A stretch of 25,062 nt of DNA, taken from positions 1-25,062 of IMG/VR virus record IMGVR_UViG_3300046004_000319; one strand, written 5' to 3'. The translations under genes and the position numbers were made by a program. Positions 5,986 through 25,062 of this stretch are shown here, in pieces. A model generated the notes under the pieces. That model was given only the letters and a program-made list of their open reading frames with translations. It was not told the origin of the DNA and made no database searches. Every line of letters starts with the position of its first letter. The first letter of the stretch is position 1. Source of the stretch: a virus.

Positions 5986-6321
5986 ATGAACAAACATGAT
6001 CCGATTGACATCAATTCTGAGGAACGCGCGCAAGCCGAGCTTGATACGCGAAGACGCAATGCACGCGACACCGAAGAAGGCGATTTAAAATGGCTTATGA
6101 GCAGCAAGCGGGGGCGTCGAATTGTTTGGCGTCAACTGGAAGCGGCGGGGGTTTTCCGTTCTTCATTCAACACCAATGCGATGGCGATGGCCTTTGCAGA
6201 AGGTAACAGGAATTTAGGACTGCGACTCTTGGGACAAATCCACAGCATCTGCCCTGAGCACTACACAACGATGATGAAGGAATCAAATGAGCAACGAGAC
6301 AACAACACTGATGACAGATAG
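5986..6321 (+). CDS. Bbp19-like phage protein
   Basis: This is a 111-residue protein from the ATG at 5986; a GTG at 5977 is in frame but has no better ribosome site. The core W-L-M-S-S-K-R-G-R-R-I-V-W-R-Q-L, then A-G-V-F-R-S-S-F, and later E-G-N-R-N-L-G-L-R-L-L, is the signature of the Bbp19-like family named after Bordetella phage BPP-1. That family lies just upstream of the scaffold and capsid genes in many podoviruses. Its molecular role is not established; position suggests head assembly. The N-terminal 30 residues are charged and probably flexible. The gene overlaps the next by 35 bases, which indicates coupled translation. Confidence 0.85.
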   Translation: MNKHDPIDINSEERAQAELDTRRRNARDTEEGDLKWLMSSKRGRRIVWRQLEAAGVFRSSFNTNAMAMAFAEGNRNLGLRLLGQIHSICPEHYTTMMKESNEQRDNNTDDR

Positions 6322-6934: not shown

Positions 6935-6950
6935 CTCAGGAGCGCATAGC

Positions 6951-7943: not shown

Positions 7944-7950
7944 TTGAAGC

Positions 7951-7968
7951 GGGCGGGTAGCACCGCCC
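7951..7968 (+). promoter_or_regulatory. GC hairpin between capsid and cement genes
   Basis: GGGCGG (7951-7956) and CCGCCC (7963-7968) make a six-pair stem with the loop GTAGCA. TACTTGG follows, so there is no T run and it should not terminate efficiently. It may protect the 3' end of capsid mRNA or reduce read-through into the cement gene; both are inference. Confidence 0.55.
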
Positions 7969-7986
7969 TACTTGGAGAATTGAACC

Positions 7987-8400
7987 ATGATTATCGACAA
8001 ATTTTTGCAAGTCTCTAACGAGCAAGCGGTAACTGCGACGGCAGCTTCGACCGACGTTATCGACTTCGGCCAGACGAACCCTAACACCGGTATCTCTGAC
8101 CACTTGGACCTGTCAATCACTGTAGACGAAGCTGCAGCTGCAGCCGGTGCTGCGACCGTGGTTTTCAGTATCCAGGACTCTGCTGATAACAGCTCTTTCG
8201 CCGACGTAGCATCTACCGTTGCCATCGGCAAAGCAGCACTACCATTGGGTGCGCAGATTGTGATCCCTATGCCTAAGTTGCACCGCCGTTATGTCCGGGT
8301 AAACTACACTGTAGCTACCGGTCCGTTAACCGCTGGTAAGTTCTCTGCGCAGTTCGTGACTGGTCTGCAGTTGAACACGCCAACACCTGGTCAACTGTAA
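7987..8400 (+). CDS. Capsid cement protein (Bbp16-like)
   Basis: The 137-residue product resembles the Bbp16 capsid cement family of BPP-1-type heads, which binds the outside of the shell and stabilises it. The N-terminus I-I-D-K-F-L-Q-V-S and the segment T-D-V-I-D-F-G-Q are followed by alternating beta-type strands. These include V-V-F-S-I-Q-D-S-A-D-N-S-S-F and L-H-R-R-Y-V-R-V-N-Y-T-V-A, and the end is G-K-F-S-A-Q-F-V-T-G-L-Q. Position right after the major capsid gene is the usual one. The ribosome site is GGAG (7974-7977), nine bases before the ATG. The gene is complete and not unusual. Confidence 0.86.
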   Translation: MIIDKFLQVSNEQAVTATAASTDVIDFGQTNPNTGISDHLDLSITVDEAAAAAGAATVVFSIQDSADNSSFADVASTVAIGKAALPLGAQIVIPMPKLHRRYVRVNYTVATGPLTAGKFSAQFVTGLQLNTPTPGQL

Positions 8401-8410
8401 GGGCTGAATG

Positions 8411-8620
8411 ATGGCAAGCACTAAACAACCCGTAAAAGGCAAGCCGCCAGTAGGCGAGAACAAAACTGTAATCGCTTTACGCGATGGCTACTTCGGCCAA
8501 TACCGCGTAGCTGGCGAGCAGTTTGAAGTTCCGACGGACCTGAATGCAAGCTGGTTTGTCGATGCAACACCAATCGAAAAACCGGAAGCAGAGAAATCTG
8601 AAGCAAGCGACCTGGTGTAA
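8411..8620 (+). CDS. Small hypothetical protein of the head module
   Basis: This 69-residue reading frame starts at ATG 8411, seven bases after AAGGG (8399-8403); an ATG at 8408 is the next candidate and adds one methionine. It has a basic N-terminus, a central segment R-D-G-Y-F-G-Q-Y-R-V-A-G-E-Q-F-E-V-P that looks like a small beta fold, and an acidic tail (E-K-P-E-A-E-K-S-E-A). Proteins of this size with a G-Y-x-G-x-x-R-x-x-G-E-x-F core often lie between cement and tail genes in phages. I cannot assign a function. It is the last gene before the 8642-8664 hairpin, so it closes the capsid block. Confidence 0.75.
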   Translation: MASTKQPVKGKPPVGENKTVIALRDGYFGQYRVAGEQFEVPTDLNASWFVDATPIEKPEAEKSEASDLV

Positions 8621-8623
8621 GCC

Positions 8624-8640
8624 AGCGGCGTAATGAAAAC
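8624..8640 (+). promoter_or_regulatory. Possible degenerate fifth copy of the intergenic motif (E)
   Basis: AGCGGCGTAATGAAAAC aligns with copy A only when one gap is allowed, sharing about eleven positions including the GTAA core and the A run. Its placement is the better evidence: it lies three bases after a stop codon, directly before a hairpin, and 58 bases before the next ATG, the same as copy A. On sequence alone it would not be called. Confidence 0.25.
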
Positions 8641-8641
8641 C

Positions 8642-8664
8642 AAAGGGGCCGCGTGCCCCTTTTT
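8642..8664 (+). terminator. Rho-independent terminator after the capsid block
   Basis: AAAGGGGC (8642-8649), loop CGCGT and GCCCCTTT (8655-8662) form an eight-pair perfect stem. The stem ends in five Ts (8660-8664), followed by CATT. The A-T pairs at the base and the short T run suggest partial termination, which would lower tail-gene expression relative to capsid. The ribosome site of the next gene lies outside the stem. Confidence 0.75.
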
Positions 8665-8681
8665 CATTGGAGATACAAATT

Positions 8682-9323
8682 ATGGCTACGGAAGTTGAGA
8701 TCTGCAACCTTGCCCTTGGACACTTGGGCGACACTGCAACAGTAGCAAGCATCGACCCGCCTGAAGGTTCTGCGCAAGCAGAGCACTGTTCGCGGTTCTA
8801 TCCAGTTGCGCGCGATATACTACTGCAAGCGCACGGCTGGAACTTCTCTACCCGGCGCATTCAACTGGCGCAACTGAGTGAAGTACCTTATGGCTGGGCC
8901 TACGCTTACGCAAGACCAGATGGTGCATTAGACGTGTTCGATATCCAACTGCCTGAGACAATGGACTTTGCACGCGAAAGCCAAGCCTTTGTTTGCGAAG
9001 TGGATGCGGATGGTAACGATGTGATTTATACCGATGTGTCGAACGCAGTAGCACGCTACACAATGCGCGTAACTGATACCACAAAATTCCCGCCACTGTT
9101 CACCTTGGCTTTGTCCTGGCAATTAGCAGGCTTACTTGCAGGGCCAATCCTGAAGGGCGACGTGGGTGCAGCTGAAGCAAAACGCTGCGCGCAAATGGCT
9201 GCAGCGTACTTAGGCGAAGCGAAGGTAGCTGATGCGCGGCAACGCAAAGTACCATTGAACCACACTGCAAGCGGTATCGTAGGGCCAGACCGCACGGCGC
9301 CTACCAATCCTTGGGGGCGCTAA
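8682..9323 (+). CDS. Tail tubular protein A-like (head-tail adaptor)
   Basis: This 213-residue protein corresponds to T7 gp11, the ring that closes the portal and carries the nozzle. The opening T-E-V-E-I-C-N-L-A-L-G-H-L-G-D is the characteristic N-terminus of the family. A-R-D-I-L-L-Q-A-H-G-W-N-F-S-T-R-R lies at about residues 45-62, and the helix L-A-L-S-W-Q-L-A-G-L-L-A-G-P-I at about 143-158. The ATG at 8682 has GGAG nine bases upstream; a TTG at 8667 is in frame but overlaps that ribosome site. It is three bases from the next gene, with which it forms the tail module. Confidence 0.86.
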   Translation: MATEVEICNLALGHLGDTATVASIDPPEGSAQAEHCSRFYPVARDILLQAHGWNFSTRRIQLAQLSEVPYGWAYAYARPDGALDVFDIQLPETMDFARESQAFVCEVDADGNDVIYTDVSNAVARYTMRVTDTTKFPPLFTLALSWQLAGLLAGPILKGDVGAAEAKRCAQMAAAYLGEAKVADARQRKVPLNHTASGIVGPDRTAPTNPWGR

Positions 9324-9326
9324 GTT

Positions 9327-11375
9327 ATGGCAAACACAAGAACACTAAGCCGCAGCTTTGCAGGCGGCGAAGTTACCCCTGAGTTTTTTGGCCGCATTGA
9401 CGACGTGAAGTATCAGTCTGGCCTTGCAACTTGTCGCAACTTCATTGTGAAACCCCACGGCCCGGTAGAAAATCGCGCCGGGTTCGCCTACGTAAACGAG
9501 GTGAAAGACAGCACGAAGAAGGTGCGACTAATCCCTTTCACCTATTCAACAACACAAACGATGGTCATTGAACTAGGCGCGGGCTACTTCAGATTCCATA
9601 CACAAGGCGGGACCTTGTTACACCTTGGCGTCCCTTACGAAATCACTAACCCATATGCTGAAGCAGACCTGTTTGATATCCACTACGTACAATCTGCAGA
9701 CGTAATTACCCTGGTGCATCCGAACTATGCACCTCGCACGCTTAGCCGGTTAGGACCAACGAACTGGTTTTTAAGCACCATTACTTTTGCGGCACCGGTT
9801 GCGCCTGATCTGCCGACTGCAGTTATGTCTGGCGGCACTGAACTCAAATACGATTATGTATACGTGGTCACTTCGATAGGCGCGGACGGACTGAGCGAAT
9901 CTGAAGCCTCGCCTGAAGTAACGGTACAAGGCAACCTGTTCGAGACTGGACAAGTAATTGAGATATCATGGACCGCAGTACCATTGGCAACCCGGTATCT
10001 GGTTTATAAGCTGCAAGGGGGCATGTTCGGTTACATTGGGCAAACCACGTCACTGTCGCTGAAAGATGACAATATCGATGCGGATATGTCAAAGACCCCG
10101 CCAATCTATGAAGCAGTGTTCGGCAGTGCTGGCGAGTATCCTGGCGCAGTTAGTTACTACGAACAGCGCAAGTGCTTTGCAGGCAGCATCAACAAGCCTC
10201 AGAATATTTGGATGACTAAAAGCGGCACTGAGAAGAATATGTCGTATTCTCTGCCACTGCGCGACGACGACCGTATCAGTTTCCGCGTAGCTGCGCGCGA
10301 AGCCAATACTATCCGGCATATCGTTCCACTGACTCAACTGGTGATACTAACAAGCTCTGCTGAATGGCGCGTCACTTCAGTTAACAGCGATGCGATTACA
10401 CCAACAACAATCAGTGTAAGCCCGCAATCTTACGTGGGCGCAAGCAACGTGCAACCTGTGATCATCAACAATACTTTGCTTTATGGCGCAGCAAGGGGCG
10501 GACACGTCCGCGAACTGGCGTACAACTGGCAAGCAAACGGATACTTGACCGGGGACTTGTCACTGCGCGCACCTCACTTGTTCGACAACCTTGACGTGGT
10601 GGATATGGCCTACGCCAAAGCACCGATGCCACTGGTTTGGTTTGTTAGTACCAGCGGAAAATTGCTGGGCCTGACTTATGTACCAGAGCAGCAAATAGGT
10701 GCATGGCATCAACACGACACCGATGGCGTATTCGAGTCGTGCTGCGTAGTTGCTGAAGGCAATGAAGACGTGCTGTATGTTGTGGTTAAGCGCACAATCA
10801 ACAGCACTGAAGTTCGATACGTCGAACGGATGGCAAGCCGACAATTCGCCAACCAGGAAGATGCGTTCTTTGTTGACTGTGGTGCAACCTATGACGGCGC
10901 ACCGGCTGACGTTATCAGCGGACTGGATTACTTAGAAGGAAAAACGGTAAGCATCCTGGCAGACGGTGCAGTGCACCCACAGCGTACAGTGATCCTTGGC
11001 AGCATTACCTTGGACAATGAAGCGAGCAAAGTGCATATCGGTTTGCCAATTGTTGCGGACGTGAAGACACTGCCAGCCGTTATTGGTTTGCAAGATGGCA
11101 GCTACGGACAGGGCCGGTTCAAGAACGTCAACAAGGTCTGGCTGCGCGTATTCCGTTCAAGCGGTATATTCGTCGGTCCTGACTTTGACAAATTGACTGA
11201 GGCCAAGCAACGCACAACAGAAGTTTATGGCAGTCCGCCAGCACTGAAGTCTGAAGAAATCCAAGTTATGGTTACTCCAAGCTGGGATGACAGCGGCCAA
11301 GTAGCGGTGCGGCAATCAGATCCGTTGCCACTGACTATCGTTAGCATGACGACGGAAATGGCTATCGGCGGATAA
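9327..11375 (+). CDS. Tail tubular protein B-like (tail nozzle)
   Basis: The 682-residue product fits the large podoviral nozzle protein that follows tubular A. The N-terminus S-R-S-F-A-G-G-E-V-T-P-E-F-F-G-R, and then C-R-N-F-I-V-K-P-H-G-P-V-E-N-R-A-G-F, is the recognisable signature. Residues about 165-255 look like an inserted fibronectin-III-type beta domain (Y-D-Y-V-Y-V-V-T, W-T-A-V-P-L-A-T-R-Y-L-V-Y). The segment Y-Y-E-Q-R-K-C-F-A-G-S follows, as is common in the family. GGGGG (9313-9317) lies nine bases before the ATG. The final 40 residues (W-L-R-V-F-R-S-S-G-I, later P-L-P-L-T-I-V) are also typical. Motif copy C begins two bases after the stop. Confidence 0.86.
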   Translation: MANTRTLSRSFAGGEVTPEFFGRIDDVKYQSGLATCRNFIVKPHGPVENRAGFAYVNEVKDSTKKVRLIPFTYSTTQTMVIELGAGYFRFHTQGGTLLHLGVPYEITNPYAEADLFDIHYVQSADVITLVHPNYAPRTLSRLGPTNWFLSTITFAAPVAPDLPTAVMSGGTELKYDYVYVVTSIGADGLSESEASPEVTVQGNLFETGQVIEISWTAVPLATRYLVYKLQGGMFGYIGQTTSLSLKDDNIDADMSKTPPIYEAVFGSAGEYPGAVSYYEQRKCFAGSINKPQNIWMTKSGTEKNMSYSLPLRDDDRISFRVAAREANTIRHIVPLTQLVILTSSAEWRVTSVNSDAITPTTISVSPQSYVGASNVQPVIINNTLLYGAARGGHVRELAYNWQANGYLTGDLSLRAPHLFDNLDVVDMAYAKAPMPLVWFVSTSGKLLGLTYVPEQQIGAWHQHDTDGVFESCCVVAEGNEDVLYVVVKRTINSTEVRYVERMASRQFANQEDAFFVDCGATYDGAPADVISGLDYLEGKTVSILADGAVHPQRTVILGSITLDNEASKVHIGLPIVADVKTLPAVIGLQDGSYGQGRFKNVNKVWLRVFRSSGIFVGPDFDKLTEAKQRTTEVYGSPPALKSEEIQVMVTPSWDDSGQVAVRQSDPLPLTIVSMTTEMAIGG

Positions 11376-11439: not shown

Positions 11440-12018
11440 ATGGGCTTTTCAGCTAGCCAAATGGCTCAAGTGTCAACAGGGGCTAACGTAGCAGGCAGCG
11501 CGCAATCTGCAGTCGGCGCGTACTACGATGCGTCAATGCAGAAACAAAGTCTGAAGCATACAGCGGCAATGGCAACTATCAACGCGCGCGTAGCTGAGCT
11601 AGGCGCACAGTCGGCATTACTGCAAGGTAAGTCAGAAGTTGCGAAACTCACCCAGCAAGCGGGCCAATTAAAAAGCCGACAGAAGGTGGCACTGGCTGCA
11701 AGCGGAGTCGATTTAGGCGTAGGCAATGCGGCTGAGATCCAAGCCTCAACCGATATGATGAAAGAAATCGACGTGAACACGATACAGTCCAACGCTTGGC
11801 GCAATGCCTGGGGCCAACGAGTGCAAGCGCAGAACTACTTGAACCAAGCCGATGCAGCACGTATCACCGCTAAAGGCATTAACCCTTACCAGAGCGCAAT
11901 GAACTCACTGATGGGCGACGCGGGACAGGTAGCGAGTCAGTGGTACGGACTACAACAGCAAGGTGCGTTCGGCACTACGACCGACACCAACGGCAACACA
12001 ACAAATTCATGGTGGTAA
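11440..12018 (+). CDS. Internal virion protein, T7 gp14-like
   Basis: This 192-residue protein is close in length to T7 gp14 (196). In T7, gp14 leaves the capsid on infection and forms the outer-membrane part of the DNA-ejection channel. The segment K-V-A-L-A-A-S-G-V-D-L-G-V-G-N-A-A-E-I (about residues 85-103) is the signature of this family. The following helix, N-T-I-Q-S-N-A-W-R-N-A-W-G-Q-R, belongs to it too. The N-terminus is glycine/alanine rich with amphipathic character; the end is glycine, threonine and asparagine rich. It is first in a three-gene block with the T7 order gp14-gp15-gp16, three bases from the next gene. AGG lies eight bases before the start. Confidence 0.86.
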   Translation: MGFSASQMAQVSTGANVAGSAQSAVGAYYDASMQKQSLKHTAAMATINARVAELGAQSALLQGKSEVAKLTQQAGQLKSRQKVALAASGVDLGVGNAAEIQASTDMMKEIDVNTIQSNAWRNAWGQRVQAQNYLNQADAARITAKGINPYQSAMNSLMGDAGQVASQWYGLQQQGAFGTTTDTNGNTTNSWW

Positions 12019-12021: not shown

Positions 12022-14049
12022 ATGCCAACAGTTCCGACCTATGACTCGGCGCAAGTCAGTCAGAATACGACACCGCAAGTCTCTTTCGATGCGACGTCGG
12101 CGCAACCAACTGCTGCGCGTCAACTTATGCAAACCGGGCAGGCTATGTCCTCAATGGGCCAAGCCGCTGGACGTATCGCCAACGATATGCAGCAACAAGC
12201 CAACGACCTGCGAGTAACGGACGCACTGAACCAAGCCAAAGAACAGGCCATGCGCTTAACCTTTGACAAGGATGCAGGCTTTACTAACCAACGCGGTATC
12301 AACGCACTGCAACGACAAGACGGTAAATCACTGGAACAGGAGTACAGCGAGGAACTGCAAAAGCAAATGGATAGTCTTGCAAACGGATTAGGCAACGAAG
12401 CTCAACGCGCAATGTTCAAACAGAATGCCGATGGTATTCTCGGCGGGTTCCGGGCTAACCTGGTGAAGCATGAAGCTGAACAGTATCAAGACTATTCGCT
12501 GTCTGTATCTGAAGGCGTGCAGTCAACAGCACTGCGCGAAATTGGTTTGAACTGGAACAGTCCAGAAGTAATTGACAAAGCGGTGAACCGTATCAAAGCG
12601 GAAACTTACCGCCAGGGTCAATTGCTTGGCAAGTCTGCTGAGTGGCAGGACGCAAGGACGCGCGAACTAACAAGCAAAGCCCATCTGACTGCGATGGCTG
12701 CAGCACTGGACAAGGGCGATCCTATCTATGCTGATGGCTATCTGAAGAAGTACGGCGAGCAAATGCAAGCCGACGACTTGTTGCGGGCGCGTGGGCTGGT
12801 CAACAAAGAAGTTGATCTGCAGGTCGGTACAAGTATCGGCCAAGCAACTATGAACAAATACCGCAGTGGGATTGTGCCTACTGAATACGACCGGCTGCAA
12901 AATATCGTCAACAGCAAGGCGCCACAAGTTGAAGGGCAACCGGCACTGGACGAGCAAATCAAGAAATTCGGCGGCGATGTGACCAAAGCACTGGCCGCGT
13001 ACAAGCTGGGAGACAAGGAAGTCAGTTCTCTTGAAAAGCAATATGGTGCTGATTGGCTTGCCAACGCGCCAAAGGACACAAGAGATTTTGTAACTAGCAC
13101 TGCGGCCGAGTTCGGTGCAGGCGGTGGCAAGGGTACACGTCCTACACTGGCAGAAATGAAGGCGGACCTGCGCAACGATCCAGCATTGGCGAACAACCCA
13201 CTGCGATTGAAGCACGCAGAAGACTACATTGAAACGCAATACGCAGCTATCAACGCGGCCAAAAAGCAACGCGAAGAAGATTCGCTCGATGCAGCTTACA
13301 AAGAGCTATATGCAAACGGCGGCGATATGTCTAGCTTACCGGCTGGACTACGGGCGCAAATACCTGGCGACAAACTGGACAGCGTATTGAACTTTGCGAA
13401 GTCAGTATCCAAGGGTGAAAAGATGGTGAACAACGGACAGGCATGGGCACAGGTTTTAAGTATGCCGAAATCCGTACTATCGCAAATGACACCAACAGAT
13501 TTTTATGCCAAGTACCGCAACGTACTGGATGACGCGCACCTTGAAAAAGGTTATGCGCTATTGGCTGAAGCAAACAACACTGCAACTGACAAGCACCTTG
13601 AGATCCTTACCGTAGACAACCGGATGAAGCAAGCCGCAATCGGGGCTGGCATTCTACCTGCTGATGGTAAACCGGACGAGGAACAGTCACTGCAATTTGC
13701 GCAGTTCCAACAGACAATCGATATGAAGGTCCGCCAGTTCGAGCAAACCGACTTACAAGGTAAGCGCAAGGCGAACAGCCAGGAACTGCAAAACATTGTC
13801 GACACGACACTGATGGATAAGGCTTTTGTTGCAGAATCTTTCTGGCCTGACAACGCTAAACCACTGTCACTGATGACCCCACAAGAGCAAGCCGTGTCTT
13901 ACGTCAACGTGGGCGATGAAGAAATAGCAGTGACCAGCATACCGGTATCGCAAAGAGCATTGATTGTTAGTAAACTTCAGGCGAGGGGCTTGCCAGTTAC
14001 TGAGCAAGCAATCGCTGAACTGTGGGTACGTGCAGGCAAACAAAAATAA
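12022..14049 (+). CDS. Internal virion protein, gp15-position, with broken transglycosylase segment
   Basis: The 675-residue product holds the place of T7 gp15, the middle ejection protein. Most of it is helical and rich in glutamine, alanine and lysine. Residues about 312-360 keep the C-terminal part of a soluble lytic transglycosylase domain: K-F-G-G-D-V-T-K-A-L-A-A-Y, then G-A-D-W-L-A-N-A-P-K-D-T-R-D-F-V. The usual Y-N-A-G-P turn has become Y-K-L-G-D. The preceding catalytic half (E-S-G-G and G-L-M-Q type motifs) is not present between residues 270 and 312. I infer loss of muralytic activity by internal deletion. The remainder (R-P-T-L-A-E-M, K-K-Q-R-E-E-D) matches the layout of related podoviral proteins. 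The start ATG at 12022 has a weak GGTGG site. Confidence 0.85.
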   Translation: MPTVPTYDSAQVSQNTTPQVSFDATSAQPTAARQLMQTGQAMSSMGQAAGRIANDMQQQANDLRVTDALNQAKEQAMRLTFDKDAGFTNQRGINALQRQDGKSLEQEYSEELQKQMDSLANGLGNEAQRAMFKQNADGILGGFRANLVKHEAEQYQDYSLSVSEGVQSTALREIGLNWNSPEVIDKAVNRIKAETYRQGQLLGKSAEWQDARTRELTSKAHLTAMAAALDKGDPIYADGYLKKYGEQMQADDLLRARGLVNKEVDLQVGTSIGQATMNKYRSGIVPTEYDRLQNIVNSKAPQVEGQPALDEQIKKFGGDVTKALAAYKLGDKEVSSLEKQYGADWLANAPKDTRDFVTSTAAEFGAGGGKGTRPTLAEMKADLRNDPALANNPLRLKHAEDYIETQYAAINAAKKQREEDSLDAAYKELYANGGDMSSLPAGLRAQIPGDKLDSVLNFAKSVSKGEKMVNNGQAWAQVLSMPKSVLSQMTPTDFYAKYRNVLDDAHLEKGYALLAEANNTATDKHLEILTVDNRMKQAAIGAGILPADGKPDEEQSLQFAQFQQTIDMKVRQFEQTDLQGKRKANSQELQNIVDTTLMDKAFVAESFWPDNAKPLSLMTPQEQAVSYVNVGDEEIAVTSIPVSQRALIVSKLQARGLPVTEQAIAELWVRAGKQK

Positions 14050-14060: not shown

Positions 14061-17000
14061 ATGACTGATATTTATGATTCGATTTTAGATGGTCAAGAGC
14101 AAGGTGCACCACTAACGGCACCGGTTGCACCAGCTGGTCAGAAAGACGCTTATGATACGATACTGGATGAATTTGCTACTAAGCAGGACGCAGCACTCAA
14201 GCAGTCACTAGGCGAGGCGATGAAGGTACTGCCGCAACAAGCTGCAACGACGCAGCAACTTGCGAAGGCTTCAGGCTTGCCAGAAGATTTAGTCGAGCGC
14301 AACAAAGACCTGGTACAACAACAGGTGAAGATGCGCGAATTACAATCACTGCTGACGAGCTCGCCAATTCTTGCACGCCAAATGCAAGACCCGGCATTCG
14401 CTAAGCTGGCGCAAAACGATGCCGCAACCTTGAGCACTATCGAGCGCTTATGGCGTGGGCCAAGTGGCGGTGCGGTCGAAGGCTTCGGCATGGGCACTGC
14501 GGGCATTGGCGATACGCTGAGCATCGTACAACGCAACTTCATGGAAGGCTTTGCCAATACCTTCTTGCCTACTCCTATTGGCGGGTTTGACAAAGTTGAT
14601 AAAGGCTCTTTAGCTGGACCATTGCTTGGTCAAGACTGGCAGAAAGTTGGTGAATACCTGAAGGCGCAAGGCCGCGATATTCAGATCCCACAATTGCAAC
14701 AACAGTTTTTTGATAAAGTGCTGGCGGGCATCGGACAAGTCGGCGCGCAAATTACAGTTGGCGCTTTAACTGGGGGCGGCGGCTCTGCAGCATTCTTGTA
14801 CGGTCAAGGCGTCAATGCGATGACTGAGAAGACTGCCAAAGACCCAGGCACGCAAGGCGAAAAAGATTTAGCAGCATTACTAGGCGGTGGCGTCACTGCG
14901 ATTACTGAGAAGTGGGCACTGGACAAGTTGCTCGGCCCGATGACTTTGCCAATCCAGAATCAACTGGGCGCAGCCTTAGCGCGCATTGGCGTAGCAGGCG
15001 CAAGCGAAGGTGCTCAAGAGACTATCGAATCCCTGGCGCAAGATGCACTGCGCAAATACCTGGTCAATCCTGAAGCACCTATCCAATTAGGCCAAGCACT
15101 GGACGAAGGTGGAGTCGGCGCAACTGTGGGCGCGATAGTCCGCACCGTAGTCGAATCTGCAGCTGGCGTTCGCAGCCGTGCAGTAAGAGACAACCAACAA
15201 GCTGCGCAAGCCGAACAAAACACTGCAATGATTGAGCAGTTAAACAAGCTGGCAGCTGCAAGCGAGTTATTGCAAACAAGCCCTGAAGCATTCCAACAAT
15301 TCATCGAGCAAGCTGCAGAAGATGGTGAAGTTACCGACCTGTATATCGACGCTGCAGTATTAATGCAGTCGGGTATGGCTGACCAACTAGCTGCAATTTC
15401 GCCAGCTATTTCTGAGCAGTTACCGGCAGCGATGGCAACAGGTGGAACAGTCCGCATTCCTGTAGGTGAGTACGCTGCGAAGATTGCACCGACCGAATTC
15501 GCACAAGGTTTATTGGACCATTTAAAAACTGATCCGATGGGCTTTACCCGGACGGAAGCGCAAGAGTATTTCCAAAATTTCCAAGCGCAAATGGAAGAAG
15601 AAATCGCGCAACAACTGGCAAATAAAACCGGCGACCAAGAATTCATGGACAGCAAAGAGCGCGTGAAGCAAACCGTGCTGACTGAGCTAAACGACTTAGG
15701 CCGCTTCACTCCGCAGAAGAATGAACTGGACGCAACGCTAATCGCTGCGCGTACTGCTGTTCGTGCTGCGCAACTTGGCATGACACCTGAAGCATTCTTT
15801 GAGAAACAACGCTTGCGCTTTGCGGCTGAACGCATTGATGGGCAGCGAGTCCCTGACGTCGACGTATCGGTGCAACTGGACCAGATAAAAAACGCGAGTG
15901 ATCGCGAGGGTTATGTGGAAGGAGTGCGAAGTCTTGCCGCGGAGTTACCTAACGGCAGCACCATCACCGATGCAGATACAGGGGTTGTTTACACAGTAAC
16001 CAAAGGCACTACAAGCAAAGGCACCGAATTTATTGAGTTTGACGCCGGGGGCAAGGGCGAAAACAATTTCACTTTCAGTAAGAAGAAAGACGGACAGTGG
16101 GCCGTTGCGGGCGATTTGTATTTCCCAAAACAGTTTGAAATTAAGCAACCGGCGCGGCAGCAAGGTATGTTGGATCAGGCAGCATACCACGGCACCCCGC
16201 ACAAGTTTGACAAGTTCAGTCTGGACGCAATTGGTACAGGTGAAGGCGCCCAGGTTTACGGCTGGGGCCTTTACTTTGCGGGCAGCAAAGAGATTGCCGA
16301 ATGGTACAGGGACACCTTGACGGATGCTCGCGCAAACATAATCGATAACAGCCGTTTGGAAATGGAAGGAAAGGTCGTCGATAAAGATTCCGAAGACTAT
16401 GACTTTATGCTAGAAATCCAACGGGCTGGCGGGTTTGAAAAATACATAAGCGTGCGCCAAGCATCCTTAGACACCTTGGCGCCCGACCATCCGGTATACC
16501 GGGCGAGGTCAAAAACCATCGAGCGTGCAAAGGCATTACAAGAGAAATACAACAATGCTGATTTAAACTACGTTACAGATATCCAGAAAGAAAAAGCTGA
16601 CGGGACACTTTACCAGGTAGATATCCCTGAAGATGCGGACTTGATGGATTATGAAGCGAAGTACAACGATCAACCTGAGAAAGTCAAACAAGCAATTGCT
16701 GATTTGTTTAACAGCATTGGGCAACTTGATCTGCTAGTGACTAACCCTAGCGGTGTGGATATCTACAACTTTTTAGCTGAAGCTGCTGCAGAGGGTAGAC
16801 AGTTTGAAGCCTCCCAAACATTCACCGATAAGGATGAAGCACTTGCGTTCTTCAAACAGAAGTCAAACGAATGGCGGGGCAACGAAGGTCAAAAGAACCA
16901 ACCTAAAGTAGACCAGGACTTTGATGACAATTGGGTGATTACTTTCGGCCAGCAACTAGAAGAAAAATTCGGAATCGAATCTAACATCAGCGCAGACCGT

Positions 17001-20000
17001 AGCGCGTCCCTAGTGCTAAACAAAGTTGGCATACCTGGCCTGCGATACCAAGACGGCATGAGTAGAAACGGGGAAGGCAACAGCTATAACTATGTTATTT
17101 GGGACGAGAATGCGGTAACCGTAGAAGCTGTAAACAACGAGCTGGCCCAGGCAACTGCGAGGGAAAACGGCACGTATCTGCAAAGCGAAATTCCTGGCGG
17201 CATTGTTTATGTTAGCGACGTCAACGCTATCGACGTTGAAGAAGACCTGAAGGATTTAGCAAGCGAACTGATAGACAACGGCGCACAGATAACTCCAAGG
17301 GGCGAAGTGCGTTTGTTCCACCGTACTAGCAAGGCGTCCGCTGAGACAATCAAGTCAACAGGTATGATGACTGGTAAAGAGGATGGCTTGTTCTTCTCTA
17401 CAAAATCGGATGGGCAAATCTCCGACTATGGCGACACTGTGGTCGAATTGCATATCCCGCTGAGCAAGCTACAACTTGATGACGTTTTCGGCGACGAGGC
17501 GCATGTGCGCGTCCCAATGCAACGTGCAGGGCAAAAGGTAAACGTCAGACCCTGGCAAGGTGAATACAACCAATTCGCTGGCGTCCGGTCGCGCACCGCT
17601 GATTTAGGCCAACTAGAAATCGCGATGGCAATGGCCGACGATAAACGCAGTGCTAACTATATCCAAGAGCGTACCGGCTGGACCTTAGGCGTAGACGGCA
17701 TGTGGCGCTATGAAATATCAGATGACCAGGCACGCTTCAACATTGACGAGTTGAAAACAGATTACCCATACGTGCTAGAAGAAGTGCTGGACCATCCTGA
17801 ACTGTTTGCAGCTTATCCTGGCTTGCGCAATATCAACGTGCTATTCAAGGACGGCGACGGGTATGCGTTAGGTGCTTACATTGAACAACGAAACAAAATC
17901 GAGGTCGACACGTCGCGCGGTAAAGAAAGCGCACTTAGCACCTTGTTGCACGAAATCCAACACGCTATTCAAGCGCGGGAAGGTTTTGCGCGCGGCGGTT
18001 CTTCTGATACTGAGTTTGTCAACTCGGTTAAAGAAGCTGTTATCCGGTTGAAAGAACAGGCTGACAGCAACGTCGCTTCATGGAAGAACACCAACTGGGA
18101 CGTACTGGACAAAGTTAAAGAGTCAACCGAACTTGCGCGCAACGCTCTGAAGTACCAATCGGCGCAACGATTAATTGAATACTCTAAGCGTGATAAGCCG
18201 TCTGGCGTATTCCGTTTGATCCGCAACGAAATGCAATGGATTTACGGCGAACAGTTCTATGGCAACCGGGAAGCTAACGACATTCAACGCATGTTCTACG
18301 ACCTGCCGAAACGAGGTGACAAGCGCAATTCATTCTTGAGCAATATGGCTTTTGAAGGTGCGCAGTTCCTTATGAAGTCTATCCCGGCTGAACAGCTGAG
18401 CATGTTTAAGAATGACCCTCGCAAATTGCAAAGCCTGGTTAAAGCACTTGACCGCCAGGCAAGCAGTGCCCGCAAAGAAATGGCACCTTTGCGCGACTTA
18501 GAAAAAGATGCGCGGGCGGCAAACTACTTGAACGAAAAGACCAAGTACAAAACTTCTTTTGATGTTTACAACGCTTTAGCTGGCGAGATTGAAGCGCGCA
18601 CAACACAAGCCCGCCAGCAATTTACGGCGGAAGAAAGACGGACGCGCCCAGTGCGGTTCGATATGGACGTCGACCCTTCACAAGCAATCGTTATTTTAGG
18701 CGGGCGCGAAATGAAAGTGCCTAGCGTAATGCAAAGCATGGCCCCACAAGGCGCACGCGGTTCGTTCAATCCGAACACTAATACGATTGCGCTGATGAAA
18801 GGTGCTGACTTATCGACGTTCTTGCACGAAGCCGGGCACTACTTCTTTGAATCCGATATCAACCTGGCAGCTGAGATTGTGCAAGGCAATGCGCTTTTCG
18901 GTGCGGAGTCAATGACGCAAGGCGAGTCAGAGATCTTGAACGACGTATCTACGCTGTTCACCTGGTTCGGGTTTGAAGGCGATATCGCTACGCAAATTGC
19001 ACAATGGAATAGCTTGAGCTTTGAGCAGAAACGCGGCTACCACGAAAAAACTGCTGAATCTTTTGAGCGCTATTTGTTTGAAGGCAAGGCGCCAAGCATT
19101 GAACTGCAAAGCTACTTTCAGCAATTCCGTGCCTGGTTGACCAACGTGTATAAGTCAATCAAGGACTTTGTGACTAACAATCCTGCAGCCGGTGAATTGT
19201 CTGATGAAGTGCGCGCAGTGTTTGACCGTATGCTCGCGACTAATGAAGAAATCCAACTGGCTGAGCAAGCCCGGTCTATGATGCCGTTATTCCGTACCAA
19301 GCAAGATGCAGACAATATTGGCATGACGCCAGACGAGTTTAAGGCTTACCAAAAGCAGGACGTCGATGCGACTAATGCAGCTATCCAGGATATGCAAGCG
19401 CGCGCAGTACGTGATCTGCAGTGGACTCGCAACGCGCACAATAGAGAAGTAAAACGCTTGCAACGTCAAGCTGGCGAACTGCGCACAGCCGCAAAAGATG
19501 AAGCGCGCGCCGAAGTGCTGAACGAACCGCTATACAAAGCCTGGCAGTTCCTGACGCGCAAGCTGGAAGAATCTGACAAGGTGGTCCCTGTCCAACGTCC
19601 TAAGACTGATCCGAATGTGGTCGAGCCTATGGTCGATTCGATGTTCACTGCTATCGCAAAACTTGGCGGTTTGAACAAGCAAGAAGCGATGGACACTTGG
19701 GGAGTCGAAGAAGCTGAGCGGCCAAACTCCGGCGTATTCGGTAAACCGGTGCTACGGGTTAACGGTGGCAAGTCGATTGACGGTATGGTCGAAGCGCTTG
19801 CGCAATACGGCTATCTGCCACTAGACGAGAATGGCAAAGCGGATATCGCTGACTTTGAAACGAAGTTCGATGACGAGTTGCGTGGCGATCCTCAATACTC
19901 AGTTGCTTACGATTACAGCATAGATGACGCGATGATGCTGCGCCCTGGCGAGCAAATGGACGTCGCCTCTTTGACTGCTGGCCGGTTCGATATCGGTGCG

Positions 20001-22937
20001 CTGATGGAAATGGATTTAACCAGTGCCGAAATCGAATTGCTAAAAGCCCGTCGCATGACTGCGAAGGATGGCTTGCACCCGGACTTAGTTGCTGAACTGC
20101 CAGGGATTGAAATGAGTTCGGGCGACGAGCTTGTGCGCAAGTTGCTGGCGGCTACTCCACTGAAAGAAGAAATCGAAGCGCGCGCAGAAACGATTATGCT
20201 GGAACGTCATGGCGAACTGTCTTCACCTGAAGCAATCGCGCGCGAAGCTGATAAAGCAATCCATAGCGAAGCACGCGCGAAGATGGTGGCAACTGAAGCC
20301 AACGCACTGGCACGCGCAACCGGCGAGCGTAAAATTTTGGCAAAGGCTGCGAAGGCTATGGCTGAAACAATGGTCGCACGTATTAAGGTCCGCGATATCA
20401 AGCCAACGCAATATGCAAGCGCTGAAGCGCGCGCAGCTAAGAATGCAGTCAAGGCAAGCAATGCAGGCGACTTACGTACTGCGGCTGCAGAGAAGCGCAG
20501 CCAGTTGGTGAATACCTACGCAACGCGCGCAGCCTATAACGCACAGGATGAAATCAACGCAGCACTGCGATACCTGAAGAAGTTCGAGAAAGAAGGTAGC
20601 CGCAAAGGTTTGGATATTGAATATCTGGACCAAATTGACGTATTGCTTGAGCGCTTCGACTTGCGCAAAGGTGTAAGCCTGAAGGCTTTAGACAAGCGCG
20701 AATCTCTGGCGAAGTGGATTGCTGCGCAAGAAGAACAAGGTTTTGAACCTGATTTACCTGAATACGTTACCGCTGAAGCAAACCGGGTACACTATAAAAA
20801 TCTGACAGTTGAAGAATTCCGTGGCCTGGTGGAATCGGTGAAACAAATCGAGCACCTTGGTCGACTGAAGAAGAAACTGCTGACGGCAAAAGACCAACGC
20901 GATCTGGATGCAATTGTCGACGAAATCAAAGAGCGCATCGAGCAATCGAGCGGCGGGCGTACCGTCAATAATGAAGTGCGCAACACGCTTGAAGATAAAG
21001 TGCGCGCAAGCGTCGGCAAGTTCTTAGCTGCGCACCGCAAAGCTGCGAGCGTAGCGCGCGAACTGGATGGCTTTGAAGATGGTGGACCAATGTGGGAATA
21101 CTTCACCCGTGCAATGAATGATGCCGGGGATTATGAAGTTACCAAGCGCGCAGAGACTTCAAAGAAACTTTATGAACTGGCTAAGCCAATCATTGACGGC
21201 GCTAAGATGGGCGGCAAAGGTCGTTTCTTCCCGTCGCTTAATCGCAGCGTAAACCGTGGCGAGAAAATTGCCATGGCTCTTAACTGGGGCAACGACTCTA
21301 ACCGCCAGCGTTTACTAGGCGGCAAGGGCTGGACAGCTGCGCAAGTGCAACCAGTGCTGGACACAATGACTGCTGAAGAATGGCAATTCGTGCAAGGCGT
21401 ATGGGACTTGTTTGAATCGTTCCGACCTGAGATTGCTGCAAAGGAAAGACGAGTAAGCGGCAAAGAGCCAGAATGGATTGAAGCGGTCCCGCTGGATATC
21501 ACCACAATCGACGGTCAAAAATTGCAGTTGCGTGGCGGCTATCACCCGGTGAAATTTGACCCACTGCAATCCGGCAAAGTAGGCGAGCACGCTGCAGCTG
21601 AAGAAGCTAAGCAATTGCTGCGCGCAGCATACACTGCAGCAACAACACGTCGCAGCTTTACCAAGTCGCGCGCAGCTGAAGTGTACGACCGTCCGTTGCT
21701 CTTGAGCTTCGATGGTATCTACCAGGGCATGAACGAGGTTATACACGATCTGGCTTGGCATGAATGGCTAATCGATGCGAACAAGTTACTGCGCAAACTG
21801 GACGGGCCTATCCGCACCCGGTACGGCGCGAACTATGTTGACGTGCTGAAGAAGGCTAAAGACGATATCGCGCGCGGCGATACGCCAGCTGCTAACGAGT
21901 TTGAGAAGGCGCTGTCACACGTCCGCAACGGTTCAACGATTGTCGGTATGGGCTGGAATATCACGACCGCACTGATGCAGCCTTTAGGCTTTAGCCAATC
22001 TGCAGTGCGTATTGGCGGCAAGTGGTTAGGCCGTGGCATGACTGAGTTTTTTGGTTCACCTTCTCACATGATTGCTAAAGCTGAAGAAGTGCAAGGCAAA
22101 TCGAAGCTGATGGCAAACCGTGCGCTAACCTTTAACCGCGAAATCAACGACGTGCGTAACCGACTTGAGACAAGCAAGTCAGAGACTTATCAGAAGGTGG
22201 AAGCTACGTTCTTTATCATGATCCAAAAAATGCAGGCAATGGTTGACTACCCTACATGGCTTGGCGCGTATGAAAAGGCACTGGCAGATCCTGCTAACGA
22301 CGAGCAACGTGCGATTGCTCTGGCGGACCAAGCTGTCCTGGATGCGCAAGGCGGCGGGCAAACCAAAGACTTGGCACTGGTGCAACGCGGTAGCCCATTG
22401 CTGAAGTTGTTCACCAACTTCTACAGCTACTTTAACGTGCTGTATAACTTAACTTCTGAGCGCACAAAACAACGTGTTAAGGCTAAAGAGTATGGCGGCT
22501 TAATGTCAGACTATATGTTGCTTATGGTTGTGCCCGCAGTAATGAGCGCGATAATTCGCAACGCAACCAAGGGCGAAGATGACGAAGAAGAATACATGAA
22601 AGCGATTGCAGGCGAGCTTGTTGGTTATCCGTTCGGCATGTTCTTAGGCGTGCGCGAAATGGCTGAAGCAGTCAAGTTGGCAGTAGGGCTTGGCAATCCA
22701 GGCATTGGGTATTCTGGCCCTGCAGGTTTGCGCTTCTTCAGCGAAGTCTACAAACTAGGTCAACAAGCTGGACAAGGGGAATTGGACTGGGCATTTTTCA
22801 AAGCCGCAAACAACGCGGCGGGGATCTTGTTCCACTACCCTGCGGGCCAAGTCAACCGGCTGGTGGAAGGTGTTGTCGCCTTGATGGATGACAAGACAGA
22901 TAACCCACTGGCCCCGTTGGTAGGCGTCAAGAAGTAA
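14061..22937 (+). CDS. Giant polyvalent internal virion (ejection) protein with ART and zincin domains
   Basis: This 2958-residue protein occupies the T7 gp16 position. The ATG at 14061 has GGGG five bases upstream. Residues 1-700 are helical, with glycine-rich hydrophobic patches near 140-160 and 225-300. An ART-PolyVal ADP-ribosyltransferase lies at about 709-1025 (Y-H-G-T-P at 709-713, G-L-Y-F-A at 736-740, Y-V-I-W-D-E-N near its end). A second ART-like unit is at 1083-1160 (L-F-H-R-T, H1087; G-L-F-F-S-T, 1109-1114). A zincin-type region has H-E-I-Q-H at 1297-1301, and a second zincin has H-E-A-G-H at 1589-1593. Residues 1860-2300 match regions conserved in large polyvalent proteins (H-Y-K-N-L-T-V-E-E-F-R-G). 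The end has hydrophobic stretches (about 2815-2870) suited to inner-membrane contact. It probably enters the cell with the DNA. Targets are unknown. Confidence 0.92.
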   Translation: MTDIYDSILDGQEQGAPLTAPVAPAGQKDAYDTILDEFATKQDAALKQSLGEAMKVLPQQAATTQQLAKASGLPEDLVERNKDLVQQQVKMRELQSLLTSSPILARQMQDPAFAKLAQNDAATLSTIERLWRGPSGGAVEGFGMGTAGIGDTLSIVQRNFMEGFANTFLPTPIGGFDKVDKGSLAGPLLGQDWQKVGEYLKAQGRDIQIPQLQQQFFDKVLAGIGQVGAQITVGALTGGGGSAAFLYGQGVNAMTEKTAKDPGTQGEKDLAALLGGGVTAITEKWALDKLLGPMTLPIQNQLGAALARIGVAGASEGAQETIESLAQDALRKYLVNPEAPIQLGQALDEGGVGATVGAIVRTVVESAAGVRSRAVRDNQQAAQAEQNTAMIEQLNKLAAASELLQTSPEAFQQFIEQAAEDGEVTDLYIDAAVLMQSGMADQLAAISPAISEQLPAAMATGGTVRIPVGEYAAKIAPTEFAQGLLDHLKTDPMGFTRTEAQEYFQNFQAQMEEEIAQQLANKTGDQEFMDSKERVKQTVLTELNDLGRFTPQKNELDATLIAARTAVRAAQLGMTPEAFFEKQRLRFAAERIDGQRVPDVDVSVQLDQIKNASDREGYVEGVRSLAAELPNGSTITDADTGVVYTVTKGTTSKGTEFIEFDAGGKGENNFTFSKKKDGQWAVAGDLYFPKQFEIKQPARQQGMLDQAAYHGTPHKFDKFSLDAIGTGEGAQVYGWGLYFAGSKEIAEWYRDTLTDARANIIDNSRLEMEGKVVDKDSEDYDFMLEIQRAGGFEKYISVRQASLDTLAPDHPVYRARSKTIERAKALQEKYNNADLNYVTDIQKEKADGTLYQVDIPEDADLMDYEAKYNDQPEKVKQAIADLFNSIGQLDLLVTNPSGVDIYNFLAEAAAEGRQFEASQTFTDKDEALAFFKQKSNEWRGNEGQKNQPKVDQDFDDNWVITFGQQLEEKFGIESNISADRSASLVLNKVGIPGLRYQDGMSRNGEGNSYNYVIWDENAVTVEAVNNELAQATARENGTYLQSEIPGGIVYVSDVNAIDVEEDLKDLASELIDNGAQITPRGEVRLFHRTSKASAETIKSTGMMTGKEDGLFFSTKSDGQISDYGDTVVELHIPLSKLQLDDVFGDEAHVRVPMQRAGQKVNVRPWQGEYNQFAGVRSRTADLGQLEIAMAMADDKRSANYIQERTGWTLGVDGMWRYEISDDQARFNIDELKTDYPYVLEEVLDHPELFAAYPGLRNINVLFKDGDGYALGAYIEQRNKIEVDTSRGKESALSTLLHEIQHAIQAREGFARGGSSDTEFVNSVKEAVIRLKEQADSNVASWKNTNWDVLDKVKESTELARNALKYQSAQRLIEYSKRDKPSGVFRLIRNEMQWIYGEQFYGNREANDIQRMFYDLPKRGDKRNSFLSNMAFEGAQFLMKSIPAEQLSMFKNDPRKLQSLVKALDRQASSARKEMAPLRDLEKDARAANYLNEKTKYKTSFDVYNALAGEIEARTTQARQQFTAEERRTRPVRFDMDVDPSQAIVILGGREMKVPSVMQSMAPQGARGSFNPNTNTIALMKGADLSTFLHEAGHYFFESDINLAAEIVQGNALFGAESMTQGESEILNDVSTLFTWFGFEGDIATQIAQWNSLSFEQKRGYHEKTAESFERYLFEGKAPSIELQSYFQQFRAWLTNVYKSIKDFVTNNPAAGELSDEVRAVFDRMLATNEEIQLAEQARSMMPLFRTKQDADNIGMTPDEFKAYQKQDVDATNAAIQDMQARAVRDLQWTRNAHNREVKRLQRQAGELRTAAKDEARAEVLNEPLYKAWQFLTRKLEESDKVVPVQRPKTDPNVVEPMVDSMFTAIAKLGGLNKQEAMDTWGVEEAERPNSGVFGKPVLRVNGGKSIDGMVEALAQYGYLPLDENGKADIADFETKFDDELRGDPQYSVAYDYSIDDAMMLRPGEQMDVASLTAGRFDIGALMEMDLTSAEIELLKARRMTAKDGLHPDLVAELPGIEMSSGDELVRKLLAATPLKEEIEARAETIMLERHGELSSPEAIAREADKAIHSEARAKMVATEANALARATGERKILAKAAKAMAETMVARIKVRDIKPTQYASAEARAAKNAVKASNAGDLRTAAAEKRSQLVNTYATRAAYNAQDEINAALRYLKKFEKEGSRKGLDIEYLDQIDVLLERFDLRKGVSLKALDKRESLAKWIAAQEEQGFEPDLPEYVTAEANRVHYKNLTVEEFRGLVESVKQIEHLGRLKKKLLTAKDQRDLDAIVDEIKERIEQSSGGRTVNNEVRNTLEDKVRASVGKFLAAHRKAASVARELDGFEDGGPMWEYFTRAMNDAGDYEVTKRAETSKKLYELAKPIIDGAKMGGKGRFFPSLNRSVNRGEKIAMALNWGNDSNRQRLLGGKGWTAAQVQPVLDTMTAEEWQFVQGVWDLFESFRPEIAAKERRVSGKEPEWIEAVPLDITTIDGQKLQLRGGYHPVKFDPLQSGKVGEHAAAEEAKQLLRAAYTAATTRRSFTKSRAAEVYDRPLLLSFDGIYQGMNEVIHDLAWHEWLIDANKLLRKLDGPIRTRYGANYVDVLKKAKDDIARGDTPAANEFEKALSHVRNGSTIVGMGWNITTALMQPLGFSQSAVRIGGKWLGRGMTEFFGSPSHMIAKAEEVQGKSKLMANRALTFNREINDVRNRLETSKSETYQKVEATFFIMIQKMQAMVDYPTWLGAYEKALADPANDEQRAIALADQAVLDAQGGGQTKDLALVQRGSPLLKLFTNFYSYFNVLYNLTSERTKQRVKAKEYGGLMSDYMLLMVVPAVMSAIIRNATKGEDDEEEYMKAIAGELVGYPFGMFLGVREMAEAVKLAVGLGNPGIGYSGPAGLRFFSEVYKLGQQAGQGELDWAFFKAANNAAGILFHYPAGQVNRLVEGVVALMDDKTDNPLAPLVGVKK

Positions 22938-22995: not shown

Positions 22996-25062
22996 GTGAC
23001 TATAGCAACCCAATCCCGAACAGCCGGACCATTTGAATGTAATGGCTCAACAACGGTTTATCCTTTCACATTCAAGGTGTTCACTACCAGCGATGTTGCT
23101 GTAATTTTTCGCAACACGGCAAGCGGCGAAGAAGCCAAGCTGGTTTTAAACATTGATTACACTGTCGCGCTCAACGCAAACCAAAACGCGAACCCTGGCG
23201 GATCAATCACAATCATCGGCCCGGCTTATGAGGCTGGCAACACGCTGATCTTAACAAGCGAACTGCAGTACCTGCAACCGACTGATCTCACCAACCAGGG
23301 CGGCTTTTATCCTAAGGTTATTTCCGATGCTTTGGACCGGCTGACTATTTTCGTGCAGCAAATCCGTGGGCTTGCTACGCGCGCACTGAAGTTTCCAATT
23401 AGCGATGGCAACTTAGATGCTACGCTACCAGGTAAGGACCAGCGGAAAGGCCGCGTACTTGCATTCGATCCTACGACTGGCTTACCTGTCGTCGGCCCTT
23501 TAGTAGATGGCATTGGTGCGGGCGCGAACTACATTTCAGAAACAGCACCAACGACCGGGCTGTATAACGGGTTCCGTTGGTACAATCCTGCAGTGCCTAC
23601 AACTTACGTTTACTACATGGACGGCGACTCAAACCAATGGGTAGAAGAAGCCTCGCAGTCAACCGACGGCGGTTTGCGCGATGACTTAGGCGCAGTAGAT
23701 TCGGCAGTACCAATTGCTGGCGTACCGGCTAGTGCTATCGCAACAATCAAGGACAAAGTTGATAATTTAGATTTTAGCTATTCTGACGAGTTAAGAACAC
23801 TAACAATAAACCCTGACTACAACACCACAAACCCCCAGTGTAAGGCGTCCCTAAACACTGCAGGTACTCTTGAGTACCCGAACAGACTAGGGCATTCCGT
23901 TGCTTTTGGAAGGGACGACGCCCCGCTAGAAGTAACGTACAACGTACCTGTGAGCTTTACCGTTAGCGCGGGACAACCTTACCGCAACGTATTTTTCTTG
24001 TCCAAAAAAGGCGGCTTCCTGCAGACGTTCACTGCAGAGGAACTTGTGGTTACAGGGTACGGGACAGGGACCATCTCAATAACCCCTGATGCCGCTAAGC
24101 TATCTGGAAGTGAGGAAGTTACCTACTGGGTGGTGGGTGACTCAGACCAATTTAACGACAACACTACACAGAACAATTTGCAAAATAACATCGGCGGCTA
24201 TGACAATATAACTAACCGACAAATGAGCTACAACTTAGGCGCACACAACCTGATTGATGGCACTGGGGATCACAATGCGATTGTAGGTGCTACCTATTCG
24301 GTAATGTATTGCTCCGGCTCATACAACGTGATCCTGGGCGGCCAAAACAATCAACACGGGGGGATTTCTGGTTACTCTCTCGTAGGCGGCGAAGGCAATC
24401 GAAACTTCGGCTCCTATAATTTTGTGTCGGGCGCATTCTCTGTAAACAACGCAGCCAGCAAGTTTAACTTCTCTTTTGGTAGAACTTTAGATACTAAGGC
24501 TTGCGAAAACTCTGCGGCATTCGGACGCGATAACGTGCTAAATGCGAACAGCAGTTTCATGTGGGGGCAAAACCATTTCAACTACTCAAGTCACTATTCT
24601 TCAGTTGGCGGGTACGGTGCGAACTGTAGGAATGCAGGCGGTCAAACATTCGCAGCGTCCCCTGTCACAGTAGGCGCAGACCAAAAAACTGAGGTGCTAA
24701 CCAAGAAACTTACCATTGCAAGTGGCGGCGCTTGGCAGAAATTCAACAAGTTAGATGACAGTCCAAACTTGCGGCTAAGAGCTAGTGCAACGGCTTTGTT
24801 AACGGCTGATGTTGTCGTCAACTTAACCGGATTAAATGGCCTTTTGCAACCTGTAAACCACGCAGTTGTAAGATGCACGGCATTGTATAATGCCTCATTT
24901 GGTGTAATCAGCACCAGTTTTACAATACTGCATAGTGCTGGTACTGGCGGAAATGTCGAAGTGAGGTTCTACCAAAACCCGTTAGGTACTGACTACGTGC
25001 ACTTAGAGATACGCGACCCGGTGACTAACAACTCAGGTAGCGCCATCGCAGATATTTCAATC
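22996..25062 (+). CDS. Tail fibre protein, T7-like anchor and YadA-like beta-roll (3' end missing)
   Basis: The frame is open from a GTG at 22996 to the window end, giving 689 residues without a stop. AGGAG lies eight bases before the GTG, and the preceding TTG is followed by a stop in its own frame, so GTG is the start. Residues 1 to about 140 match the T7 gp17-type N-terminal anchor that fixes fibres to the tail (V-Y-P-F-T-F-K-V-F, N-I-D-Y-T-V, L-Q-P-T-D-L-T-N-Q-G). Residues about 398-555 hold repeats of 14-16 residues of the type N-V-I-L-G-G, S-L-V-G-G, F-V-S-G and S-F-G. These resemble the left-handed beta-roll of YadA-type adhesin heads. The C-terminal region, about 556 onward, is beta-rich and unassigned, and likely carries receptor contacts. 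The end lies outside the window. Confidence 0.88.
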   Translation, partial: MTIATQSRTAGPFECNGSTTVYPFTFKVFTTSDVAVIFRNTASGEEAKLVLNIDYTVALNANQNANPGGSITIIGPAYEAGNTLILTSELQYLQPTDLTNQGGFYPKVISDALDRLTIFVQQIRGLATRALKFPISDGNLDATLPGKDQRKGRVLAFDPTTGLPVVGPLVDGIGAGANYISETAPTTGLYNGFRWYNPAVPTTYVYYMDGDSNQWVEEASQSTDGGLRDDLGAVDSAVPIAGVPASAIATIKDKVDNLDFSYSDELRTLTINPDYNTTNPQCKASLNTAGTLEYPNRLGHSVAFGRDDAPLEVTYNVPVSFTVSAGQPYRNVFFLSKKGGFLQTFTAEELVVTGYGTGTISITPDAAKLSGSEEVTYWVVGDSDQFNDNTTQNNLQNNIGGYDNITNRQMSYNLGAHNLIDGTGDHNAIVGATYSVMYCSGSYNVILGGQNNQHGGISGYSLVGGEGNRNFGSYNFVSGAFSVNNAASKFNFSFGRTLDTKACENSAAFGRDNVLNANSSFMWGQNHFNYSSHYSSVGGYGANCRNAGGQTFAASPVTVGADQKTEVLTKKLTIASGGAWQKFNKLDDSPNLRLRASATALLTADVVVNLTGLNGLLQPVNHAVVRCTALYNASFGVISTSFTILHSAGTGGNVEVRFYQNPLGTDYVHLEIRDPVTNNSGSAIADISI

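Follow-up and report, generated by a model that had tools for sequence, protein, structure and literature searches.

A metagenomic virus fragment of 25,062 bases, the whole of which we refer to as the window, contains an ORF for a 2958-residue protein in which a constant scaffold with sharp borders surrounds a slot, residues 596 to 1564, whose contents are exchanged among relatives. We consider it probable, as one joint reading, that among the internal virion (ejection) proteins of a BPP-1-like podovirus this protein is the largest and that its slot carries enzymes into the cell, in which case the scaffold would have a role in delivery. An earlier note on this DNA had proposed a multidomain payload fused to an ejection protein. 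That interpretation is partly supported, since a payload is present and is limited to residues 596 to 1564; the window protein exemplifies a standard design in which a scaffold holds an exchangeable slot for cargo.

The gene order of the window matches that of Bordetella phage BPP-1. Terminase genes, a GNAT gene, and genes for the portal, protease, major capsid protein, and tail are followed by genes for an internal virion protein, a protein in the gp15 position, the giant protein, and a tail fiber, an order that corresponds by synteny to T7 genes 11-12-14-15-16-17. The giant ORF, its parts, and its neighboring genes described here are on the plus strand. The giant ORF (positions 14061 to 22937) is open and occupies the gp16 position, as had been claimed for it, in synteny with both T7 and BPP-1. 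It is the third member, and the largest, of a gp14-gp15-gp16 series that lies between the tail tube and fiber genes. Its ATG at 14061 comes after a GGGG run; the stop of the upstream gene is 11 bases away, and 58 bases separate the ORF from the downstream gene. Upstream, the product of a T7 gp14-like internal virion protein gene (11440 to 12018; phrog_418) has a weak yet full-length match to the gp14 family (PF24072; E value of 1.7e-4, below the cutoff). The gene in the gp15 position (12022 to 14049) encodes a protein with 39% identity to BPP-1 Bbp11 that carries the PHROGs label "endolysin"; it has no Pfam transglycosylase match, although its relatives are labeled endolysin or transglycosylase. 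Downstream is a tail fiber gene (22996 to 25062) that runs off the contig. The giant ORF thus sits between internal virion and tail fiber genes, in the late or virion block, and both of its neighbors are structural. This arrangement recurs in those homologous loci whose flanking DNA is long enough to show it, where a gp14-like gene is immediately upstream in 77 of 89, a gp15-position gene is present in 70 of 89, and a fiber gene is downstream in 82 of 94. No immunity gene was found among the genes flanking the giant ORF, and the tail fiber gene immediately downstream leaves no space for one.

No near-identical or close phage DNA relative of the window was found. When the complete protein served as a single-sequence query, scans of viral and genome collections gave zero matches, and alignment-based scans of these collections yielded 127 loci. 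The nearest relatives of the protein are giant proteins in the gp16 position, among them Bbp10 of BPP-1. A profile built from 76 sequences of the core and C-scaffold revealed no homology to the single T7 gp16 sequence with which it was compared, and the giant ORF has no Pfam match to an N-terminal lytic transglycosylase domain of the T7 gp16 type. Three Pfam domains exceed their curated cutoffs: LPD22 (residues 55 to 135), LPD23 (1171 to 1227), and DUF6782 (1259 to 1313). Together with a predicted ADP-ribosyltransferase (ART), LPD22, LPD23, and the DUF6782 peptidase place several disparate domains in one polypeptide. The two HExxH sites that had been noticed previously are present, HEIQH at residues 1297 to 1301 and HEAGH at 1589 to 1593; the number expected from the composition of the protein is 0.02.

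The division into scaffold and slot emerged identically from Blast comparisons with 15 phage relatives and with 103 full-length homologs. The constant N-scaffold comprises residues 1 to 595 (14061 to 15845), with homolog matches ending at a median of residue 594 (interquartile range [IQR], 590 to 600) and restarting at residue 1564 (IQR, 1563 to 1566). Among the 103 homologs, coverage of the window protein is 23 to 67% over the more divergent residues 1 to 350 and 83 to 99% over residues 351 to 600. It drops from 83% at residues 551 to 600 to 10% at 601 to 650, stays at 0 to 4% until residue 1550, and returns to 73% at 1551 to 1600 and to 81 to 99% beyond, with 68% at the extreme C terminus. 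The number of alignments that cross the slot is zero. In the window the slot spans positions 15846 to 18752; in the homologs it holds 6 to 1749 amino acids (median, 357) that are mostly unrelated to those of the window slot. Vibrio phage MZH0603, for example, retains the scaffold around a slot of 16 amino acids.

The N-scaffold contains LPD22 (PF18834; 14223 to 14465), a domain listed in 2017 as a possibly enzymatic part of polyvalent proteins (PMC5512222). Because Pfam detects LPD22 in 78 of 81 N-scaffolds (those of the window and of homologs from loci L017 to L143) irrespective of the cargo, it looks like a delivery-scaffold domain. The ORF does carry polyvalent-protein domains, as the earlier note had reported, and LPD22 has to be moved from the payload to the scaffold. 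Beyond LPD22, the 81 N-scaffolds have no recurring Pfam family, only singletons, one of which is a fused portal domain; zero Pfam families were found in 41 core and C-scaffold sequences.

Several irregular cases were noted along the scaffold. Coverage dips to 52 to 63% at window positions 19611 to 20060 (residues ~1851 to 2000), a possible second, smaller variable stretch. The giant ORF of one metagenomic contig (L068, positions 3752 to 9517) starts with a portal-protein domain that is 26% identical to the window portal (E value of 7e-29), representing either a portal fusion or an assembly join. In two cyanophages, Microcystis phage Mel-JY33 and Nostoc phage Nsp-JY18, the N- and C-scaffold matches lie ~7 kb apart, a spacing that suggests a very large slot of >2000 amino acids. 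Limnohabitans phage DC33 (PQ492659) is filed under Inoviridae yet encodes a podovirus-type giant protein, probably a taxonomy error.

Slot contents are exchanged independently of the scaffold. In all 345 pairs of proteins with 60 to 75% identical cores the N-scaffolds were similar, and any similarity between the slots was found in 58; pairs with 80 to 95% identical cores but unrelated slots also exist. Only 4 of 93 slots of at least 100 amino acids lacked a relative among the other slots, indicating that the fillings come from a shared pool. A Pfam survey of 92 dereplicated slots identified ART-PolyVal in 32, PBECR5 in 13, PBECR3 and LPD3 in 7 each, MuF_C, PBECR1, and GNAT in 5 each, RadC in 3, and LPD37 in 2, along with singletons that included GGDEF, zeta toxin, RelA_SpoT, ASCH, and PBECR2. 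These effector families, of which the PBECR members are nucleases, are confined to the slot, because the same analysis of the scaffolds as a control returned LPD22 and singletons from the N-scaffolds and nothing from the C-scaffolds. PADLOC found no defense-family hits in the 92 slots.

The first cargo domain of the window protein, residues ~704 to 1030 (16170 to 17150), is a predicted ADP-ribosyltransferase of the ART-PolyVal type. The Pfam model (PF18760) matches residues 708 to 778 just below the cutoff of 31.2 bits, scoring 26 bits when the entire protein is searched and 28.5 when the slot is searched by itself. The H-Y-D site is retained as H710, Y738, and D998 or D1015; among ~65 ART homologs, H710 is conserved in 64 of 66 and Y738 in 66 of 66, and the acidic residue is kept as D998 in 61 of 65 or as D1015 in 50 of 65. 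Structures were predicted region by region, and the model of this domain, with a pLDDT of >90 through the core, matches ART folds. Its top match in VIA-align was chain B of 9k3a, the pre-ejectosome of cyanophage A4 (Z score of 9.6 over 152 residues, 20% identity), followed by the catalytic domains of diphtheria toxin (Z score of 7.2) and tankyrase (Z score of 6.8). Foldseek alone gave no significant match to the ART model and poor E values, probably because of a long helical insertion in the domain. The earlier assignment of an ART is upheld as a prediction. A small conserved domain with many viral relatives follows at residues ~1070 to 1165 (17268 to 17555). It had been taken for a second ART-like module; we do not call it an ART, because hhalign found no profile-profile relation to ART and the model residues there are of low confidence.

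The third cargo element combines LPD23 (PF18838; residues 1171 to 1227, 17571 to 17741), which is above the Pfam cutoff, with a DUF6782-type metallopeptidase (residues 1228 to 1400, 17742 to 18260). The latter scores 30.9 bits against a cutoff of 27 and has a conserved HEIQH motif (17949 to 17963) and a conserved E1307. The adjoining region, residues 1401 to 1560 (18261 to 18740), is also found next to this module in several other phages. Other phages also have the LPD23-peptidase module in giant proteins of their own, such as gp60 of Pseudomonas phage H66, which shares only this region with the window protein and which, according to its record, was verified in the virion by mass spectrometry.

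Immediately to the right of the slot is a second, constant metallopeptidase, the core (residues 1565 to 1833, 18753 to 19559), which is related to the cargo peptidase across the HExxH region (hhalign, 69.9%; P value of 4e-5). Both zincin sites had been counted as payload. That holds for HEIQH, which is in the slot; HEAGH (18825 to 18839) belongs to the constant scaffold, and all 104 members carry the core HExxH, even where the slot is nearly empty. H1589, E1590, and H1593 are conserved, and a second helix carries H1661 and the invariant E1662 and E1669. In the core model, the HExxH motif lies on a helix that follows two strands, as in minimal zincins. The fold search with the core gave a weak match, to anthrax lethal factor, with a Z score of 5.0 over 91 residues that is below the reliable range. 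The remainder of the protein is a mostly helical constant C-scaffold (residues 1834 to 2958, modeled to residue 2740; 19560 to 22934) that belongs to no Pfam family. A Foldseek search of the PDB with the C-scaffold gave no match with an E value below 0.09 and no clear fold; among predicted viral structures, the C-scaffold resembles other giant phage proteins, which are labeled ART-PolyVal, nuclease, MuF, N-acetyltransferase, or LPD.

The core metallopeptidase most likely serves the scaffold, through self-processing, in maturation, or structurally, because it is invariant even in relatives that are nearly free of cargo. A variant of our explanation, in which the core is a release protease dedicated to the cargo, is possible but doubtful. 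It would account for the invariance of the core HExxH and for the fact that the core starts precisely where the slot ends on its right side, and DdrB of phage P1 is processed before packaging (PMC5512222). The core is nevertheless unchanged in members with slots of 6 to 16 amino acids, and the virion RNA polymerase (vRNAP) of phage N4, whose HExxH domain is comparably placed, is packaged unprocessed (PMC5512222).

We infer packaging, injection, catalysis, targets, and cleavage as follows. The phage head would contain the scaffold, which, by analogy with the ejection proteins of T7, P22, N4, and DEV (PMC8954989, PMC10925440, PMC12633501), would be pushed through the tail and a gp14/gp15-type channel before the DNA and would bring the slot contents with it. 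In the cell, the ADP-ribosyltransferase would modify host molecules immediately, the LPD23-metallopeptidase might either cut host proteins or free the ART, and the core metallopeptidase would act on behalf of the scaffold itself.

Alternatively, the slot domains might be structural parts of the ejectosome with borrowed enzyme folds, so that the ART fold would not be used on the host. The closest solved fold, an ordered domain within an assembled pre-ejectosome, is in keeping with this idea, and the slot could in part be structural. As a general explanation, we regard it as unlikely: relatives with slots of 6 or 16 amino acids retain the whole scaffold, slots contain many unrelated enzyme families, and across 65 ART homologs H710 and Y738 are almost invariant and the acidic residue is kept. 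In another proposal, the cargo would act undelivered in the phage-producing cell, in late takeover of the host or in the exclusion of competing phages. The location of the gene in the late structural block, which implies late synthesis of the protein, favors this view, as does the occurrence of zeta toxin, RelA/SpoT, and PBECR folds in intracellular conflict systems (PMC5512222). The fusion of the cargo to a conserved protein in an internal virion position, with conserved gp14/gp15-type neighbors, and the absence of an immunity gene next to the giant ORF make this proposal quite improbable. Many database entries would make the protein a lysin or a member of the crystallin type. This is very improbable, since the labels of relatives ("lysis protein" and "crystallin beta/gamma motif") are all that favors it and Pfam detected no lysin or crystallin domain either in the window protein or among 81 N-scaffolds and 41 C-scaffolds.

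The delivery reading that we prefer connects the window protein to several known systems. Iyer et al. (2017) predicted that enzymes are packaged and injected within large phage proteins (PMC5512222). The polyvalent proteins described there are, like the window protein, large and multidomain, are encoded near virion genes, and share with this protein family ART, zincin, PBECR, GNAT, and LPD domains. The window protein differs in having one constant scaffold, composed of LPD22 and a helical C-terminal part, around a slot with fixed borders, and its LPD22 and core metallopeptidase belong to what is constant, not to the cargo. No such slot is described in the sections of that article that were consulted, and Bordetella phages are absent from its text; the literature that was searched contained no paper combining the terms "polyvalent protein" and "ejection protein." BPP-1 Bbp10 and gp40 of Caulobacter phage SR18 share the scaffold and the gene order, with 40 to 52% identity in the core and C-scaffold. 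Their slots are only ~170 to 220 amino acids long and have no detectable similarity to the window cargo.

The cyanophage A4 pre-ejectosome (PDB 9k3a; Hou et al. 2025, PNAS, cited in PMC12810830), which provided the best fold match of the window ART, likewise includes an internal virion protein with an ART-fold domain; no sequence match between the two was found. T4 Alt, also an ART, is carried in the phage head and is injected into the cell together with the DNA (PMC9503650). It is a stand-alone protein with R-S-E chemistry (PMC5512222), in contrast to the H-Y-D-type ART embedded in an ejection-type protein in the window. Polymorphic toxin systems likewise join a constant part to an exchangeable effector, and here the constant part would effect delivery; unlike those systems, the window has no adjacent immunity gene.

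In N4 vRNAP, an N-terminal domain is followed by the enzyme, an HExxH domain (residues 2124 to 2375), and a helical domain (residues 2376 to 3500) (PMC12633501). The vRNAPs of N4 and DEV, which are ejected equivalents of gp16, resemble the window protein in their order of N-terminal domain, enzyme, HExxH domain, and large helical C-terminal domain (PMC12633501, PMC10925440), and they differ in that the enzyme is an RNA polymerase. Profile comparison with N4 vRNAP gave an hhalign probability of 8.5% and an E value of 0.004, a weak link restricted to the HExxH region, with no homology found outside it. The comparison accordingly supports the view that the window protein works like N4 vRNAP, not that it is a member of the same family. 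Tentatively, and with less confidence than in delivery by the window protein itself, podoviral ejection proteins in the gp16 position might represent a general modular delivery chassis, with N4 vRNAP as one historical filling and a border metallopeptidase that controls release. A fixed LPD22 N-terminal part and a zincin-helical C-terminal part would then enclose a bay that is refilled by recombination from a shared effector repertoire. In a separate observation, the end of a giant protein of the 249-kb Enterobacter phage SonariX matches the C-terminal part of N4 vRNAP.

Earlier work had already described polyvalent proteins with ARTs and zincins and had predicted that they are injected (PMC5512222, PMC9503650), and an ART-fold domain already existed in a solved phage pre-ejectosome. 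What is new here is the constant LPD22 scaffold, the sharply bounded exchangeable slot, and the obligatory adjacent metallopeptidase. Further additions are the transfer of LPD22 and one HExxH site out of the payload and into the scaffold and the connection, by fold, with an ejectosome of solved structure. LPD22 thereby gains a concrete reading as part of a constant scaffold, and misleading "crystallin" and "lysis protein" labels can be replaced. If the slot is delivered, each slot would hold a naturally selected protein that is injected at the first moment of infection, and reading the slots would list phage weapons against bacterial defenses as well as functions for host takeover. The sharp borders and the size tolerance of the slot make this idea testable.

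Two further genes in the window have counterparts in BPP-1. At positions 4696 to 5877, flanked by the genes for the portal and the capsid protease, is a gene for 393 amino acids to which neither Pfam nor PHROG gave a match; its length exceeds that of bbp20, the BPP-1 gene at the equivalent place. A stand-alone GNAT acetyltransferase gene at positions 2238 to 2720 adjoins the terminase genes, as does bbp24 in BPP-1, and GNAT domains are found also as slot cargo.
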